From positions 1-37,417 of the forward strand of contig CAMDQC010000038.1 in NCBI GenBank assembly GCA_945905735.1: 37,417 nucleotides of DNA. The letters run 5' to 3'. A program made the position numbers and the translations under genes. The notes under the pieces are model-generated. The model had not been told where the DNA came from. It worked only from the letters and a program-made list of their open reading frames with translations, and searched no databases. Within the stretch, counting starts at the first letter, position 1. The number at the start of each line of letters is the position of its first letter. The DNA is from Prosthecobacter debontii (GTDB lineage Bacteria > Verrucomicrobiota > Verrucomicrobiia > Chthoniobacterales > Chthoniobacteraceae). Positions 2,975 through 16,028 of the stretch are shown piece by piece.

Positions 2975-3226
2975 CGGGGCTTTCCTAAGCCCCGTTGCCA
3001 CGTCAGTGGCAAGCGCATTAAAAATATCTCTGTTGGACACAGGAGAGACGCGACAGGAGGGGCGGTTTTATACCGCCCTGCGGCCCGAAGGGTCGCCCAA
3101 AAACGACCCTTTCCACGGACCGCGTGCGTTCTCGGGGAGCCGCTCCGTGGCTCAGGGCGGTATGAAACCGCCCCTCCTGTCGCGCTTTGCGCGCCCCGCT
3201 ACATCGACGTTTTAATGCGTTTGCCC
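2975..3226. repeat. Multi-hairpin inverted-repeat element 1
   Basis: The element opens with two small hairpins. One is 2975-2994, an 8 bp stem with loop TCCT. The other is 2995-3012, a 7 bp stem with loop GTCA. A large inverted repeat follows: arms 3050-3080 and 3153-3183 match at 30 of 31 positions. Further out, GCATTAAAA near 3016 pairs with TTTTAATGC near 3210, so the paired structure extends to about 3226. The centre (3085-3150) contains further self-complementary pieces: AAGGGTCG with CGACCCTT, and TCCACGGA with TCCGTGG. No transposase or coding frame is present. It looks like a MITE- or REP-type element, or a structured RNA. Confidence 0.75.
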
Positions 3227-3287: not shown

Positions 3288-3518
3288 TGTCCCGAAGGGA
3301 CAGCCAGAGATTAGCCGGTGGTGGAGCGACGAAGGAGCGGGAACCACCGGTTCAGCGCGTGGTGCGGGATGCGCCCCGGAGGCGGCGCGAGAACGCCCCG
3401 CTTGCCGACAGGCTCTTTCGCCCCTGCCGGGGCTGCATCGCATACTGGGGCTGCGATCCGGTGGCTGCGCTCGTTCCTCGCTCACCACCGGCTAATCTCT
3501 AGCTGTCCCTTCGGGACA
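3288..3518. repeat. Inverted-repeat element 2
   Basis: The outer arms at about 3288-3336 and 3470-3518 are near-perfect reverse complements over some 49 bases. They start and end with the palindromic TGTCCCGAAGGGACA-type sequence and contain AGAGATTAGCCGGTGGT. The interior holds additional GC-rich stems. A piece of the right arm (CTCGTTCCTCGC) also occurs as a direct copy near 3228. There is no coding content. The element directly follows element 1, and the two may form one compound block between the 2619 gene and the MoxR gene. Confidence 0.75.
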
Positions 3519-10562: not shown

Positions 10563-11963
10563 TTAAATATGAATCGGGTGCCCGTAGGCCGCGCAGGTCG
10601 CTTCGTGGATGGCTTCGCTGAGCGTCGGGTGCGCGTGGATGGTCGCTTCGATCTCGTCTTTCGTAAGCTCTGACGTAATCGCCAAGCCCATCTCCGCGAT
10701 CATCTCCGTGGCTTCGGGGCCGACGATGTGCGCGCCGAGCAGCTCGCCGTGTGGCTCGCCGTAGATGAGCTTCACAAAGCCATCGATCTCGCCAATCGCG
10801 CGGGCTTTGCCGCTCGCCATGAATGGGAACTTTCCGACTTTAAACTTGAGCCCCTTCTCCTTCGCCGCGCGCTCGGTGAGGCCGACGCTGGCGACCTGTG
10901 GGTGGCAGTAGGTGCAGCCGGGGAAAGTGGTGACTTTCTTCGGCTTGTGACCCGCCACGAACATTCCCTCGACGCACTGAATCGCCTCGTAGCTGGCAAC
11001 GTGCGCCAGCCACGGTGGGCCGATGATGTCGCCCGCTGCGAAGACGCCGGGAGTGGTCGTCTCGTAGCGATCATTCGTGGCGATGAAGCCGCGATCCGTG
11101 AGCGATTTCTTGTCCGCAAATACTGCGCCGCCGGGGAGCAGCGGCATGATGCCGATGGCGACGAGGCAGACCTCGGCCTCCAGCACTTGCTCTTTCCCAT
11201 CCGCGCCGACGACAGTGATTTTCACGCCGTCCGCCGTGACTTCCGTCTTCGTCGTCTTGGTGTTCGTGAGGACTTTGATGCCCTGTTTCACGAACGCCTT
11301 CTCCACGACCTGCGAGACTTCGGTATCCTCCACGGGGAGTGCGTTGGGAGCCATCTCGACGACGGTTACTTTCGTCCCGAACGCATTGTAAAAATATGCG
11401 AACTCCACGCCGATTGCGCCTGCTCCGATGACGATCATGGACGCGGGTTGTTTCTCCAAAACCATCGCCTCACGCGAGCCGATGACGCGCTTCCCGTCGA
11501 ACGGCAGCCCCGGCATCGGGCGCGACAAGCAGCCCGTGGCGACAAGGATTTTCGCAGCCGTATGGACTTCCGTTTTTCCATCCGCGCCCTTCACGGTGAC
11601 GCTGCCCGCTTTGTCCAAAGTCGCCTCGCCACGGATGTAATCAATTTTGTTCTTCTTGAAGAGGAACTCGATGCCGCCCGCGTTCTTATCGCTCACATCG
11701 CGCGAGCGTTTGATGACCTTGCTCCAGTCGTAGCTCAGGTCGGTAAACGAGAAGCCGAACTCGGCAGCGCGATGCTTCATCAAGTGATAAAGCTCGGCGT
11801 TGCGCAGGAGCGACTTCGTCGGGATGCAGCCCCAGTTCAGGCAAGTCCCGCCCGCACGTTCCTTTTCCACGCAAGCGACGCGTTTGCCGAGTTGAGCTGC
11901 TTTGATCGCGCCGACGTAGCCCGCCGGGCCGCCGCCAATTACAATGAGGTCGTATGATGCCAT
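10563..11963 (-). CDS. lpdA: Dihydrolipoyl dehydrogenase (E3)
   Basis: This FAD flavoprotein re-oxidises the dihydrolipoamide of 2-oxoacid dehydrogenase complexes and of the glycine cleavage system, passing electrons to NAD. The FAD-binding GGGPAG motif is at residues 10-15. The redox disulfide GGTCLNWGC has Cys41 and Cys46. The NAD-binding segment VIGAGAIGVEFA follows in the centre. The C-terminal dimer interface ends with the active-site HAHPTLSEAIHEA (His445, Glu450). At 466 residues it has family-typical length. No E1 or E2 gene lies beside it, so the partner complex is not revealed by context. Confidence 0.96.
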   Translation of the reverse strand: MASYDLIVIGGGPAGYVGAIKAAQLGKRVACVEKERAGGTCLNWGCIPTKSLLRNAELYHLMKHRAAEFGFSFTDLSYDWSKVIKRSRDVSDKNAGGIEFLFKKNKIDYIRGEATLDKAGSVTVKGADGKTEVHTAAKILVATGCLSRPMPGLPFDGKRVIGSREAMVLEKQPASMIVIGAGAIGVEFAYFYNAFGTKVTVVEMAPNALPVEDTEVSQVVEKAFVKQGIKVLTNTKTTKTEVTADGVKITVVGADGKEQVLEAEVCLVAIGIMPLLPGGAVFADKKSLTDRGFIATNDRYETTTPGVFAAGDIIGPPWLAHVASYEAIQCVEGMFVAGHKPKKVTTFPGCTYCHPQVASVGLTERAAKEKGLKFKVGKFPFMASGKARAIGEIDGFVKLIYGEPHGELLGAHIVGPEATEMIAEMGLAITSELTKDEIEATIHAHPTLSEAIHEATCAAYGHPIHI

Positions 11964-12046: not shown

Positions 12047-12286
12047 TCACGGCAATTCATCACCCGGCATCGGCGGCACATCGGGGACTTCGGAAAGCGC
12101 TTCGTCGAAAGCAGTCCGCGACGCACCGCGCGCCCGATGCTCCATGTAGCTTTCATGGCTCCACACGCCCACGGATTGCGTGACTGCGAGTGAAATGAGC
12201 TGCGCCAACGGGATACGTTCACGCGCGGCGAGAGCGCGAGCTTGCTCCATCACGGGTTCGGGCACTTGGGCTTCGATAGTGGTCAT
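12047..12286 (-). CDS. Probable ribbon-helix-helix-type antitoxin of the PIN toxin gene
   Basis: This 79-residue protein begins TTIEAQVPEPVMEQARALAARERIPLAQLISLAV. That is a beta strand followed by two helices, as expected for a small DNA-binding antitoxin. The acidic, proline-rich tail (SEVPDVPPMPGDELP) would be the toxin-neutralising part. Its ATG overlaps the stop of the PIN gene by four bases (12283-12286), which indicates translational coupling with the toxin upstream. The antitoxin assignment rests on context and composition. I saw no exact family signature. Confidence 0.65.
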   Translation of the reverse strand: MTTIEAQVPEPVMEQARALAARERIPLAQLISLAVTQSVGVWSHESYMEHRARGASRTAFDEALSEVPDVPPMPGDELP

Positions 12287-12704
12287 GGCTGTATGGTTCG
12301 TAGTGTTTTAAGAAACTTCCCCGGCGTGGTTACAGTCACCCCGAGTTTGTCGGCGCCAGTGAAGTTTCGGATGTTGTGCGTGACGATATAGCGCGCTCCT
12401 GCGGAAACCGCCAGTTCCAGAATGAAATCATCGTTCGGATCAGAAAGAAACGGTCGCCAGCGAAAGCTGATGCCGTGCTCCACCGCGTTCGCTGCAATGA
12501 ACTGCAACACCGCCTCAACTCGCTCCGGTTTCGCCCAAGCCGCCATCACCTCACGTCGTGCCACATCCTCATACTCCAGCAGCAAAGCGGTAGAAACATG
12601 GAGCCGCCAACCCGCCGAAGAAGCTCAAACGATGCGCCATTCCGAGAACGCAGTGCGGAAATGAGCACATTGGTGTCGAGCACGACTTCGAGAGGTGGTT
12701 TCAT
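12283..12704 (-). pseudogene. PIN-domain toxin (COG1569-like), broken by an internal deletion
   Basis: PIN toxins are Mg-dependent ribonucleases. Reading leftward from the ATG at 12704 gives MKPPLEVVLDTNVLISALRS, with the conserved first Asp of the active site, then NGASFELLRRVGGS. The frame then runs into a stop. The remainder continues in another frame from about 12602: HVSTALLLEYEDVARRE, followed by FLSDPNDDFILELAVSAGARYIVTHN with the later acidic residues. The span is 422 bases, not a multiple of three. Family members have roughly 140 residues and would carry a few more residues, such as a Trp-Glu-Leu stretch, between GG and HVST. A deletion of about 10 bases near 12600 would explain both facts. 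A sequencing error remains possible. Confidence 0.75.
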
Positions 12705-13139: not shown

Positions 13140-13853
13140 TTACGCTGCGCCGCCGGGGGCGTCGGCTTTGTCCTCGCGTTGGGGGGCGCGCTCGACTCGG
13201 CTGGCGGTTTGCCAGGTGTGGAGTTTGACGGAGTCGCGGGCGTATTTGTTTTGCATCATGGCGTCGAGCTCTTGCACGTCGTCGGCGGCGAGGGCGAGGA
13301 TTTGGCCGATGCGGGCGGTGTCTTCGATTCCGCTTTGGTTTTCGCTTTGGTTATGGGCGTTGGCTTCGCGGATGGCTTCGCGGTCGGCGGCAAGGTCTTC
13401 GACGAAATCGTCGGGGAGGAGATATTCGATGAAGCGGGCGCGCAGGGCGGCTTTGGCTGCTTTTTGCGCGGGGGTGTCGCCGCCTTGTTCTACGGGGTCG
13501 TTGTTGTCTTTGAGGCGCTTGAGCAGGGAATCGGCGTGGGTGGTGATGGCGATTTCGGCGGGGTTGCTGGGGATGATGTATGGGACTGCGAAGCCGTTTT
13601 CTTTGAGGGCGATGGAGCGGGCGGTCCGGGCGATGTTTTTGAAGTCGAGGACGAGGGCGTCGAGGAGCGTTTCTTTGCTGACTCGGGCGGGGAGTTGGCC
13701 GGCTCGGGCTTGGTCGAGCCCGGCGATGTAGCCCTCGATGGCTGTGAAGTGGCGTTGGGCTTTGGCGCTGTTGGCAAAGTCAGCGGCGTGGTCGGCCCCG
13801 AAGGTTTGGATGCGGGTGAGGCGGGCGTAGCGGCGTTGGTCGCGGTCGTTCAT
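13140..13853 (-). CDS. Unrecognised 237-residue protein
   Basis: The chosen start at 13853 gives MNDRDQRRYARLTRIQTFGADHAADF. The open frame extends 25 codons further upstream, but that part lacks protein character. The protein is soluble, helical and Ala/Asp/Arg-rich, with no signal peptide or known motif. The central part has FAVPYIIPSNPAEIAITTHADSLL and RARFIEYLLPDDFVEDLAADREA. The composition suggests a helical bundle. No function can be assigned. It is followed closely by the small membrane protein at 12773. Confidence 0.6.
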   Translation of the reverse strand: MNDRDQRRYARLTRIQTFGADHAADFANSAKAQRHFTAIEGYIAGLDQARAGQLPARVSKETLLDALVLDFKNIARTARSIALKENGFAVPYIIPSNPAEIAITTHADSLLKRLKDNNDPVEQGGDTPAQKAAKAALRARFIEYLLPDDFVEDLAADREAIREANAHNQSENQSGIEDTARIGQILALAADDVQELDAMMQNKYARDSVKLHTWQTASRVERAPQREDKADAPGGAA

Positions 13854-13947
13854 AGTTTTATATGGAAGGTTGAGGGGCGGAAATTGGCGGGAGTCGAGTG
13901 AGATGCCAAGCGGGAAATGAGGAATCATTAACCCGAACGCGGCTATT

Positions 13948-14077
13948 TTTGAACCGCAGATACGCGCAAATCTCCGCAGATAGCCGAGAAGTCCGCGTCT
14001 ATTTACCCAGGACAGAATGAGGTCGAACCCACGTTGCCATAATATCTGCGTTCATTCGCGCGTATCTGCGGTTCAAA
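13948..14077. repeat. Inverted repeat with perfect 20-bp arms
   Basis: Arm 13948-13967 and arm 14058-14077 are exact reverse complements and enclose a 90-base centre. Inside each arm region the words CGCAGAT and ATCTGCG recur (13954, 13975, 14044, 14064), so the element is built of a repeated short motif in mirrored orientation. It has no coding content and lies just upstream of the 13853 gene, next to the tandem array. Confidence 0.7.
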
Positions 14078-14210
14078 ATGCGGCGGTCGGGATGAACTCT
14101 CCGGCTCTGGTGGAAAACTGCGGGAGCTGGGGGATGCTGACGCTCGTTCTGGGGGAATGCGGGGAGTCACTCTGAGGTCGCTGACCGCTCTCACAACAGA
14201 GAAAAAAGTA

Positions 14211-14490
14211 ACCCAGACTCCAGCTCGCACCAACCCAGACCTCGACGCGCACCAACCCAGAGGGCGTCTCGCACCAACCCAGAGGGCGTCTCGCATTAAC
14301 CCAGAGGCGGGCTGACATTACCCAGACTGTTGCTCACACAACCCAGACCTCGACGCGCACTAACCCAGAGGTCGGCTGCACAGACCCCGGCTTGGGCTGC
14401 CACGACCCAGAGCGGTGCTCGCATTGAACCAGAGCTAGGTAGCCATCGCCCAGAGTGGGGCTGCATGGACCCAGAGGACGGCTGCTTCAG
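14211..14490. repeat. Degenerate tandem array of 13 units of 21-22 bp
   Basis: Thirteen consecutive units start at 14211, 14233, 14255, 14277, 14299, 14320, 14341, 14363, 14384, 14405, 14427, 14448 and 14469. Ten of the 13 begin with exactly ACCCAGA. The others read ACCCCGG, AACCAGA and GCCCAGA. The second half is looser, usually CTCGCAC or GCTGCA. Units 2 and 7 match at 21 of 22 positions, and units 3 and 4 at 20 of 22, so local duplication has occurred. Mixed lengths of 21 and 22 break any reading frame, so it is not protein-coding. It lies between the stop of rimO and the next gene on the same strand. Confidence 0.9.
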
Positions 14491-14522
14491 CTCCGGGCTG
14501 CGTTTTCCGGGTGCTGGGGGCT

Positions 14523-15968
14523 TCAGATCACTTCCCCGACGAGGTCATACACTTGCGTGCCGGTGATGCGGACGTTCACGAACTCGCCTACGGGGGCGGG
14601 CTTCTTAAGTAAAATGCGCCCGTCAATGTCCGGCGCGTCGCTCTCGCCGCGTGCGACGAGCGGTTGGTCCACTACGGCGCGGACGACTTTGCCGAATTGG
14701 GCTTGGCCGATCTCTTTCGCGATCTTTTGCTGGAGCTTCATCGCCTTTTTGTAGCGCGCCTCTTTGACCTTGGCGGGGAGTTGGCCTTCCATTTTACCTG
14801 CGCGACTGCCTTCTTCCTGACTGTAGGTGAAGACGCCGAGGCGCTCGAACCGTGTGCGCTCGATGAAGTCGAGGAGGTATTCAAATTCTTCCTCCGTCTC
14901 GCCGGGGAATCCGACGATGAACGTGGTGCGGATGGAGATTCCGGGGATGCCTTCGCGGATGCGCTTCACGAGGGACTCGATGTGCTCGCTGGAAGTCTCG
15001 CGTTTCATCACTTCGAGCATCCGGGGGTGGATGTGCTGGAGGGGCATATCAATGTATCGCGCGACGTGGCGGGTGGCGGCGATGCAGTCGATGAGTTCAT
15101 CGCTCCAGTGCGCGGGGTGGGTGTAAAGTAGGCGCACCCAGAAGTCGCCTTCGATGCGGTCTAGCTCGCGCAGGAGCTTGGTGAGCGTGGGGCCGCGGCG
15201 GCTGTCCACGAGCTGTTTCGGCCCCGCCTTTTCTGCCCAGAGGTCCATGCCGTAGTAGGTGGTGTCTTGGCTGATGAGGTTGATCTCTTTCACGCCTTCC
15301 GCGACGAGCCCGCGCACTTCCGTGGTGACGCTCTCGATGGTGCGCGAGCGGTGCCGCCCGCGCATCTGCGGGATGACGCAAAACGAGCACGGGTGGTTGC
15401 ACCCTTCGGCGATCTTCGTGAAGACGGTGTGCGCTGGCGTGAGGCGGACGCGGGGCGTGTCCCAGTCCGGGATATAGACGGGCTTGCGGGTGACGAAGTT
15501 CATGGGCTCCCACGCTTCGTTGAGGGGGACTTTCGTGGAGGTCTGGGCGACCTTCGGGCTCTCGCCGCGACCGAGGACTTTGGCGATGATAGAGCCGACA
15601 TCCTTCACTTGATCGAGCCCGATGAACGCATCCACTTCGCCCTTAAACTCTCCGGCCAGCTCGGTGGAAAATCGCTGGCTCATGCAGCCGGCGACGATCA
15701 GCTTCTGGCCGACGCGGCGCTTTTTGAGGCCCTTGGATTCGTGGGCTTCGAGGATGGCTTCGATGCTCTCTTCTTTTGCGGAATCAATGAAGGCGCACGT
15801 ATTCACGATGAGCACATCGGCCTCGGCAGCGTCGTTGGTAATCGTCATCCCGTGCTGCAAAACATCGCCGAGCATGATCTCGGCATCCACGAGGTTCTTT
15901 GCACAGCCAAGGGAGATCATGCCGATCTTGGGGACTTTGGTTTCAGGCGCTTTCGTGGTCGTTTTCAT
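14523..15968 (-). CDS. rimO: Ribosomal protein S12 methylthiotransferase RimO
   Basis: RimO is a radical-SAM enzyme with two iron-sulfur clusters that adds a methylthio group to an aspartate of ribosomal protein S12. The N-terminal methylthiotransferase domain has ISLGCAKNLVDAE (Cys22), VNTCAF and VAGCMSQRF. The radical-SAM motif CNHPCSFC is at residues 190-197, followed by VIPQMRGRHRSR. The C-terminal TRAM-type domain ends RITGTQVYDLVGEVI. The start at 15968 (MKTTTKAPETK) gives 481 residues. The 14 extra upstream codons seem unlikely to be translated. The GCAKN and RGRHRSR blocks separate it from MiaB. Confidence 0.96.
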   Translation of the reverse strand: MKTTTKAPETKVPKIGMISLGCAKNLVDAEIMLGDVLQHGMTITNDAAEADVLIVNTCAFIDSAKEESIEAILEAHESKGLKKRRVGQKLIVAGCMSQRFSTELAGEFKGEVDAFIGLDQVKDVGSIIAKVLGRGESPKVAQTSTKVPLNEAWEPMNFVTRKPVYIPDWDTPRVRLTPAHTVFTKIAEGCNHPCSFCVIPQMRGRHRSRTIESVTTEVRGLVAEGVKEINLISQDTTYYGMDLWAEKAGPKQLVDSRRGPTLTKLLRELDRIEGDFWVRLLYTHPAHWSDELIDCIAATRHVARYIDMPLQHIHPRMLEVMKRETSSEHIESLVKRIREGIPGISIRTTFIVGFPGETEEEFEYLLDFIERTRFERLGVFTYSQEEGSRAGKMEGQLPAKVKEARYKKAMKLQQKIAKEIGQAQFGKVVRAVVDQPLVARGESDAPDIDGRILLKKPAPVGEFVNVRITGTQVYDLVGEVI

Positions 15969-16028
15969 ATTTGAAGCGGGGTGAGTAACACGCGGCAGCG
16001 TTATCGGCAAAGGAAGAACGTGCTCCGA

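Follow-up and report, generated by a model that had tools for sequence, protein, structure and literature searches.

Phased arrays with a step of about 21 bp upstream of an unannotated protein superfamily in Verrucomicrobiota: a candidate two-part chromosomal locus

Thirteen degenerate tandem units lie next to rimO in a contig of Prosthecobacter debontii, and the question raised by this locus is what such units are for and to which gene, if any, they belong. We analysed a window of 37,417 nucleotides (contig C38 of genome G000) and compared it with other genomes, among them a sister species (G002) and a member of the same genus (G007). A previous sequence-only reading had described an array between rimO and its downstream neighbour that was phased to the DNA helix and might be a set of binding sites, a structured 3' RNA or a decaying minisatellite. 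Its helical phasing stood up, its structured RNA found no support, and it had missed both the partner gene and the leader that are described below.

The array and its setting in the window

The array occupies positions 14211..14489 on the plus strand, the end having previously been placed one base too far, at 14490, and the start correctly. It comprises 13 units with a 7-base head, ACCCAGA (TCTGGGT when read on the strand of the partner gene), which a recount confirmed to be exact in 10 of the 13. Read unit by unit, their lengths are, in order, 22, 22, 22, 22, 21, 21, 22, 21, 21, 22, 21, 21 and 21 bp. Mean pairwise identity is 0.91 over columns 1-7 and 0.46 over columns 8-21; with a tail identity of 0.46 over 13 units, kinship among the tails is still visible. 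The local duplication that had been read from near-identical units is real, as units 2 and 7 agree at 21 of 22 bases and units 3 and 4 at 20 of 22. Tandem Repeats Finder (TRF) scored the array at 119 and 82, and a chain of heads scored 136.8 in the 500-bp piece containing it versus a maximum of 54.4 over 144 control pieces of the window. In addition, nothing in a 437-kb genome sample that included the window was more strongly periodic than the array (13.5 at P = 21.5).

A gene for a repeat protein, already excluded in the earlier reading, is ruled out here, as are coding heptads, since stops are present in all six frames across 14205-14500. Folding of the array RNA showed no excess over shuffles on either strand (z +0.65 and +1.71, for secondary structure, pseudoknots lying outside the model), so that a structured RNA is not supported for this array, and a search of the window against Rfam returned no match at gathering score.

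The gene at 13140..13853 on the minus strand starts 357 bp from the array, which thus lies 5' of it. This partner gene encodes a protein of 237 aa, predicted to be mostly helical in a poor model of low confidence (pLDDT 44.7). A domain search recognised no DNA-binding domain, and the protein matched no family in Pfam, NCBIfam, PHROG or PADLOC; PADLOC also gave no match for two neighbouring genes. In the sister species the partner is 97% identical, and 32 of 714 bases of the gene differ, including 11 of 121 fourfold sites.

Directly ahead of unit 1, at 14196..14209 on the plus strand, is a leader consisting of ACAGAG and a run of A. By-eye comparison found an A-rich ACAGAG leader before five arrays (the window, G002:C116, G002:C66, G000:C59 and G000:C73) and none ahead of the array at G000:C1. 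Between array and gene, a repeat search detected an inverted repeat at 13947..14078 with 36-nt arms (TTTTGAACCGCAGATACGCG...) that are 89% complementary, which is also present in G002. By position it falls within the locus and is at most a candidate part of it; a simple scan of 13800-14600 found no promoter- or terminator-like site. An inverted repeat of GCAGAT type resembling it lies between array and gene in locus L358. Two further long inverted repeats were seen elsewhere in the window, at 3288-3518 and 3049-3184, and the former is probably a dispersed palindrome since it resembles a CCAGAGATTAGCCGGTGGT element near the array at G000:C48.

The genes around the array are rimO (14523-16010, minus strand; UPF0004, Radical_SAM and TRAM domains), the partner gene, a 116-aa ORF and a PIN-domain gene (12283-12585; PF13470, E 7e-10), and the domain search identified an lpdA-like gene (dihydrolipoamide dehydrogenase by domains) at 10563-11963. 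rimO, the array and the partner gene are co-directional. In genomes G009 and G020, lpdA comes immediately after rimO with neither array nor partner gene in between, and in six relatives outside G002 neither ACCCAGA nor TCTGGGT occurs in the 1000 bp after rimO. As rimO abuts lpdA in G009 and G020, the segment between them, array and gene included, seems to have been gained in the window lineage, the alternative being loss elsewhere. The PIN-domain gene belongs to the same segment missing from these two genomes.

Kin arrays and a shared step

The earlier reading had proposed a search for similar arrays in the same genome and its relatives, and these were found in G000 and in two relatives, so that the refuting case it had named, a private minisatellite, is out. 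G000 holds three more arrays like that of the window, at C1, C59 and C73. At C59 the whole layout of gene, leader and array is repeated, with a gene 54% identical to that of the window, and the C73 array adjoins a remnant of the first 28 codons of the partner gene. Of 19 genomes, three (G000, G002 and G007) contained an exact three-head pattern; over a wider contig collection it matched at least 117 stretches from many phyla, a raw set that may include chance or coding matches. Profile R1, trained on the arrays at C38, C1, G002:C66 and G007, recovered the two G000 arrays outside its training (C59 and C73). Among 40 genomes of the family it matched four, one of which (G047) had no more than a single weak hit. 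The sister species keeps the window array minus one 22-bp unit: its rimO DNA is 96% identical, the aligned array columns 94%, and the flanks (110 and 32 bp) 69-71%. A second array in this species, at C66, has 13 units, and a fragment of two units is embedded in another repeat at C11, where an array of a different element (TTACAAGCGTCTGCGTTCATATAA) encloses two ACCCAGA units (L264, 10250-10560).

Beyond these kin, a survey by Fourier scan and TRF with a home-made coding mask covered 837 kb of G000, 792 kb of G002, 121 kb of G009 and 200 kb of G007, and yielded 19 loci with a noncoding array of 55 bp or more. Removing the window and four loci in stretches that had been fetched for known arrays (L252, L262, L270 and L271) left 14 survey loci. 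Eleven have periods at or near multiples of 21 (21/42, 22/64, 41/61, 42, 63, 84 and 105) and three do not (27, 69 and 279); by our own arithmetic, with 3 residues in 21 allowed, the chance of 11 in 14 is about 1e-7. The idea of phasing at two helical turns therefore survives, as arrays with unrelated sequences share a step of about 21 bp. Stops in all six frames were found in the arrays of the window, L234, L245, L284, L295, L328 and G002:C66, other arrays have an open frame, and 7 of 27 TRF rows called coding also have a period of 21 or 42. Samples from further genomes were mixed: G025 (same order, 200 kb) has 21-bp steps at two of three loci, and G018 (same family, 187 kb) has arrays of 19 to 41 bp, which speaks against a universal 21-bp rule.

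Several other elements were observed near arrays or in the same samples. Loci L316 and L320 of G018 represent another type of repeat, in which GAGAAAGTGTCTGTCCCTTG-like units are clustered between genes at periods ranging from 19 to 41 bp. Arrays with 21-bp GGTACTT units occur in L211 200-700 (G000:C14), L252 1-400 (G000:C48) and L220 (G009:C31), and in these the two halves run in opposite orientations on either side of a GTACC/GGTAC centre, the left being the inverted one, so that they form a large imperfect hairpin. Adjoining an array at G000:C14, the stretch L211 1-128, presumably the end of a group II intron, has near-exact copies at many G000 contig ends. In L354 3110-3717 (G000:C30), an ORF that we take to be an IS200-type transposase is followed by a 21-bp array, the leader of which resembles that of the G000:C41 array.

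Linkage of the arrays to a protein superfamily

One survey array, L245, sits 5' of another gene, of 246 aa, relatives of which are present in 9 of 40 genomes of the family and which has weak library matches only, all under curated cut-offs. Profiles of the window-type proteins (A3, 4 rows) and the L245-type proteins (A2, 16 rows) match end to end (probability 88, E 3e-6), and on the strength of this comparison the two subfamilies are handled as one superfamily. Its distribution is patchy, with window-type profile matches in 9 of 147 genomes of the order and L245-type matches in 2 of 96 genomes drawn across the phylum; plasmid records and viral contigs, queried with one protein (L356), contained no relatives. 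Members sit in differing gene neighbourhoods and beside arrays with differing heads, suggesting that the locus probably travels as a unit, and the neighbour genes of 19 loci shared no common family, bar one sister pair and one weak match.

The linkage of arrays and superfamily was assessed by seeking the best period within 12.5-48 bp in the 553 to 1011 bp upstream of each member, a band of 20.5-21.75 or 41-43 bp being counted. The best period fell in the band for 21 of 31 members, a partly dependent set (L352 was an array-found seed, the window was given and has its ortholog in L347, L344 at C59 was array-found, and L353/L358 and L354/L365 are sister-species pairs), versus 104 of 1122 control genes, which came from the G000, G002, G009 and G007 samples while members were drawn from further genomes too (p 2e-14). 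With a score of at least 7 the counts were 19 of 31 versus 28 of 1122 (p 7e-21), and with a score of at least 8 they were 15 versus 20. About a third of the members (10 of 31) have no upstream band signal. The cleanest subset is made up of nine members from other genomes of the order that had been picked by protein profile alone; eight of these are in band (p 6e-8), six with a score of at least 7 and four with at least 8. Among L245-type members, 9 of 17 are in band with the seed left out. In one subfamily, a periodic score of at least 8 was found upstream of 7 of 15 genes and downstream of 1 of 15 with enough DNA.

As to the composition of the set, the window-type profile gave 18 places. Ten upstream stretches were taken, of which L390 (233 bp) was dropped; the other eight places were four already in the set, the remnant at C73 and three further ones, weak or partial, that were left out. 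Also left out of the count were L363, with 143 bp of upstream DNA, L359 and L360, whose frames are broken or partial, the fragments L349 and L351, and the partial matches L373, L375, L377 and L380, whose whole loci lack a strong 21-bp signal; the fragment L349 has a 42-bp array beside it. Three members were scored as misses despite a possible array, namely L352 (period 22.0; TRF period 42), L364 (12.2 at 14 bp, a third of 42) and L379, where the array lies beyond an intervening ORF, presumably a transposase. Taken as observed, the pairing of array and superfamily very probably holds.

The anatomy of 13 gene-linked arrays was examined with a head picked by eye for each and chains ending where heads fail; units fitted across the whole upstream region had overrun the arrays and diluted the identities. 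These arrays contain 7 to 23 units, and 152 of 182 spacings are 21 bp and 180 are 20-22 bp, in a fit that mildly favours 21. Head identity is 0.61-0.91 and tail identity 0.32-0.67, the latter at or below 0.39 in 8 of the 13, and each chain score tops 100 of 100 shuffles of its own sequence. In L353, L356 and L358 all 40 spacings are 21 bp, with head identity of 0.74-0.84 and tail identity of 0.32-0.35. One head, TGTCAA, is shared by loci of both subfamilies and points in gene direction in 29 of its 30 occurrences, which is in keeping with the two-part reading. The case for a novel two-part element is slightly weakened by the less random tails of five of the 13 arrays and of the window array. 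A CTCTGT motif, from a pattern made post hoc, lies near the gene-side end of the array in some loci and is absent from most, and was dropped as a general end motif.

What the arrays may do

We propose a two-part chromosomal locus in which the array is the cis element and the other part is the gene for a helical protein of about 240 aa. Some 7-23 heads, set about 21 bp (two turns of B-DNA) apart and lying 5' of the gene at a distance of tens to a few hundred bp, would be putative binding sites on one face of the helix, read cooperatively by the protein of the adjacent gene. Each protein lineage would have its own head, and the outcome may be control of the partner gene or of local DNA architecture. 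The locus would probably have been gained and moved as a unit, and in the window it seems to have been inserted between rimO and lpdA. For a two-part locus in which the phased array serves as binding sites, most likely for the product of the adjacent gene, we see about an even chance; that the heads are bound by the neighbouring protein we rate at even or a shade below.

In form, the locus may be likened to iteron or operator arrays. Iterons are direct repeats about two helical turns apart that lie by the Rep gene in plasmid origins, and the arrays described here similarly consist of direct repeats about two turns apart near a gene for a protein of similar size. Unlike iterons, however, they are chromosomal, occur many times per genome, reach 23 units and have very variable tails, with no replicon seen. 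Moreover, the neighbour was not recognised as a Rep among the known types in Pfam, NCBIfam and PHROG, and for this reason we do not file the locus as an iteron origin.

Decaying intergenic minisatellites would offer a different account, in which units of about 21 bp arise by slippage with a bias at birth to two-turn steps, and the link to the gene reflects a shared mobile segment with no function. Near-identical adjacent units and unit-sized indels between sister species are what slippage would leave, and some arrays are near-uniform, such as the young array at G007:C5, where the head is kept no better than the tail. Arrays also exist where no partner-type gene does (G000:C1, G002:C66, G002:C11, G007:C5 and G050:C15). 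Substitutions fit this account as well, and the earlier expectation that heads would be more conserved across relatives is unproven: the window array has 2 changes in 84 head positions versus 14 in 173 tail positions, four orthologous arrays pooled between G000 and G002 have 22 in 384 versus 59 in 765 (p 0.27), and the C6/C9 array leans the opposite way (5 in 83 versus 5 in 158). Both rates are close to the rate at fourfold sites (22 of 236 in rimO, 7 of 99 in the C41 gene). This parity reflects either low power of the test, weakly kept heads, or tails that were different from birth. Against minisatellites stand the near-random tails of L353, L356 and L358 beside persistent heads and exact spacing, the position of arrays 5' of one protein superfamily far above controls, and the return of kin heads together with the protein in different bacterial families. 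The local duplications are real, but the minisatellite option from the sequence-only reading is weakened, as arrays track the protein family and keep head and step while tails are often near random; we consider it unlikely, if the likeliest of the alternatives. Noncoding arrays at many genomic places and of open function have been described as the TAACTGA heptamer repeats of Beggiatoaceae (PMC4679880) and the BrickBuilt minisatellite of Porphyromonas gingivalis (PMC4596501). In contrast to the present arrays, each of these is one sequence family, and the accessible portions of the two papers describe neither a 21-bp lock across sequences nor a partner protein family.

The array might instead act at the RNA level, its transcript being made upstream of the gene and serving as the target of the protein, as in a type III toxin-antitoxin system or an RNA decoy. 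Its position 5' of the gene and the common direction of rimO, array and gene would suit such a role, as would the constant direction of the TGTCAA head relative to the gene (29 of 30 occurrences in gene direction, at L353, L356, L358, L382 and L383, spanning both subfamilies) and the fact that some sister arrays, e.g., L257 and L295, fold far better than shuffles. However, the window array does not fold in this way on either strand, the scan around it found no promoter- or terminator-like site, and two-turn DNA spacing has no obvious RNA reason, which makes the RNA reading quite improbable. A type III locus would have a hairpin terminator between array and gene; the scan of 13800-14600 showed no terminator-like site there, but the inverted repeat at 13947-14078 occupies that interval. 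As far as the available part of one account shows, ToxIN likewise has a tandem array 5' of a single gene, with array sequence particular to the protein cluster, whereas ToxI repeats are longer, few (3 to 5.6) and folded into a pseudoknot, and the toxin is an endoribonuclease (PMC8860590). Here the units are of 21 bp, the window array shows no secondary structure beyond shuffles, and Pfam, NCBIfam and PADLOC returned no endoribonuclease toxin family for the window protein, so we do not file the locus as type III toxin-antitoxin.

A phased bend or nucleoid-architecture element, in which A-run heads curve the DNA or place a general nucleoid protein and the neighbour is not the binder, would agree with the A runs of several heads (GGAAA, TTTTT) and with the two-turn step. 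Yet the window head ACCCAGA lacks an A run, each array has its own specific head, and the tie to one protein superfamily would go unexplained, rendering such an element very improbable. Addition of units one by one, each joining the constant head to a tail acquired from elsewhere as a miniature analogue of spacer acquisition, would fit the constant head, the often near-random tail, the one-sided leader and tails different from birth that mutate like heads between sister species, but it is scarcely credible given that whole units including tails are clearly duplicated in the window array, that tails of 14-15 nt are too short for tracing and that neither the partner nor two neighbouring genes match PADLOC. 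A CRISPR array, which would call for cas genes and for unique spacers between identical repeats at least some 23 bp long, was rejected here, with a 7-bp head, duplicated tails, and rimO, the partner, the 116-aa ORF and the PIN gene as neighbours.

Returning to the two-part locus, a search of the literature, mostly outside subscription papers, found no description of such arrays or loci. We tentatively extend the proposal to a class of two-part elements in Verrucomicrobiota, a generalisation that we hold at somewhat less than even, in which fast-diverging helical proteins would each recognise their own 5' array by lock-and-key co-evolution while the helix step stays fixed. If the proposal is true, these loci, detected through their kept spacing rather than their sequence, would constitute an unrecognised system of recognition in which a protein family and its DNA (or RNA) sites form numerous natural pairs of differing specificity. 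They would then also be a warning that sequence-based repeat searches miss such arrays, and would provide both a handle on an unannotated superfamily and a natural data set for the study of specificity change.
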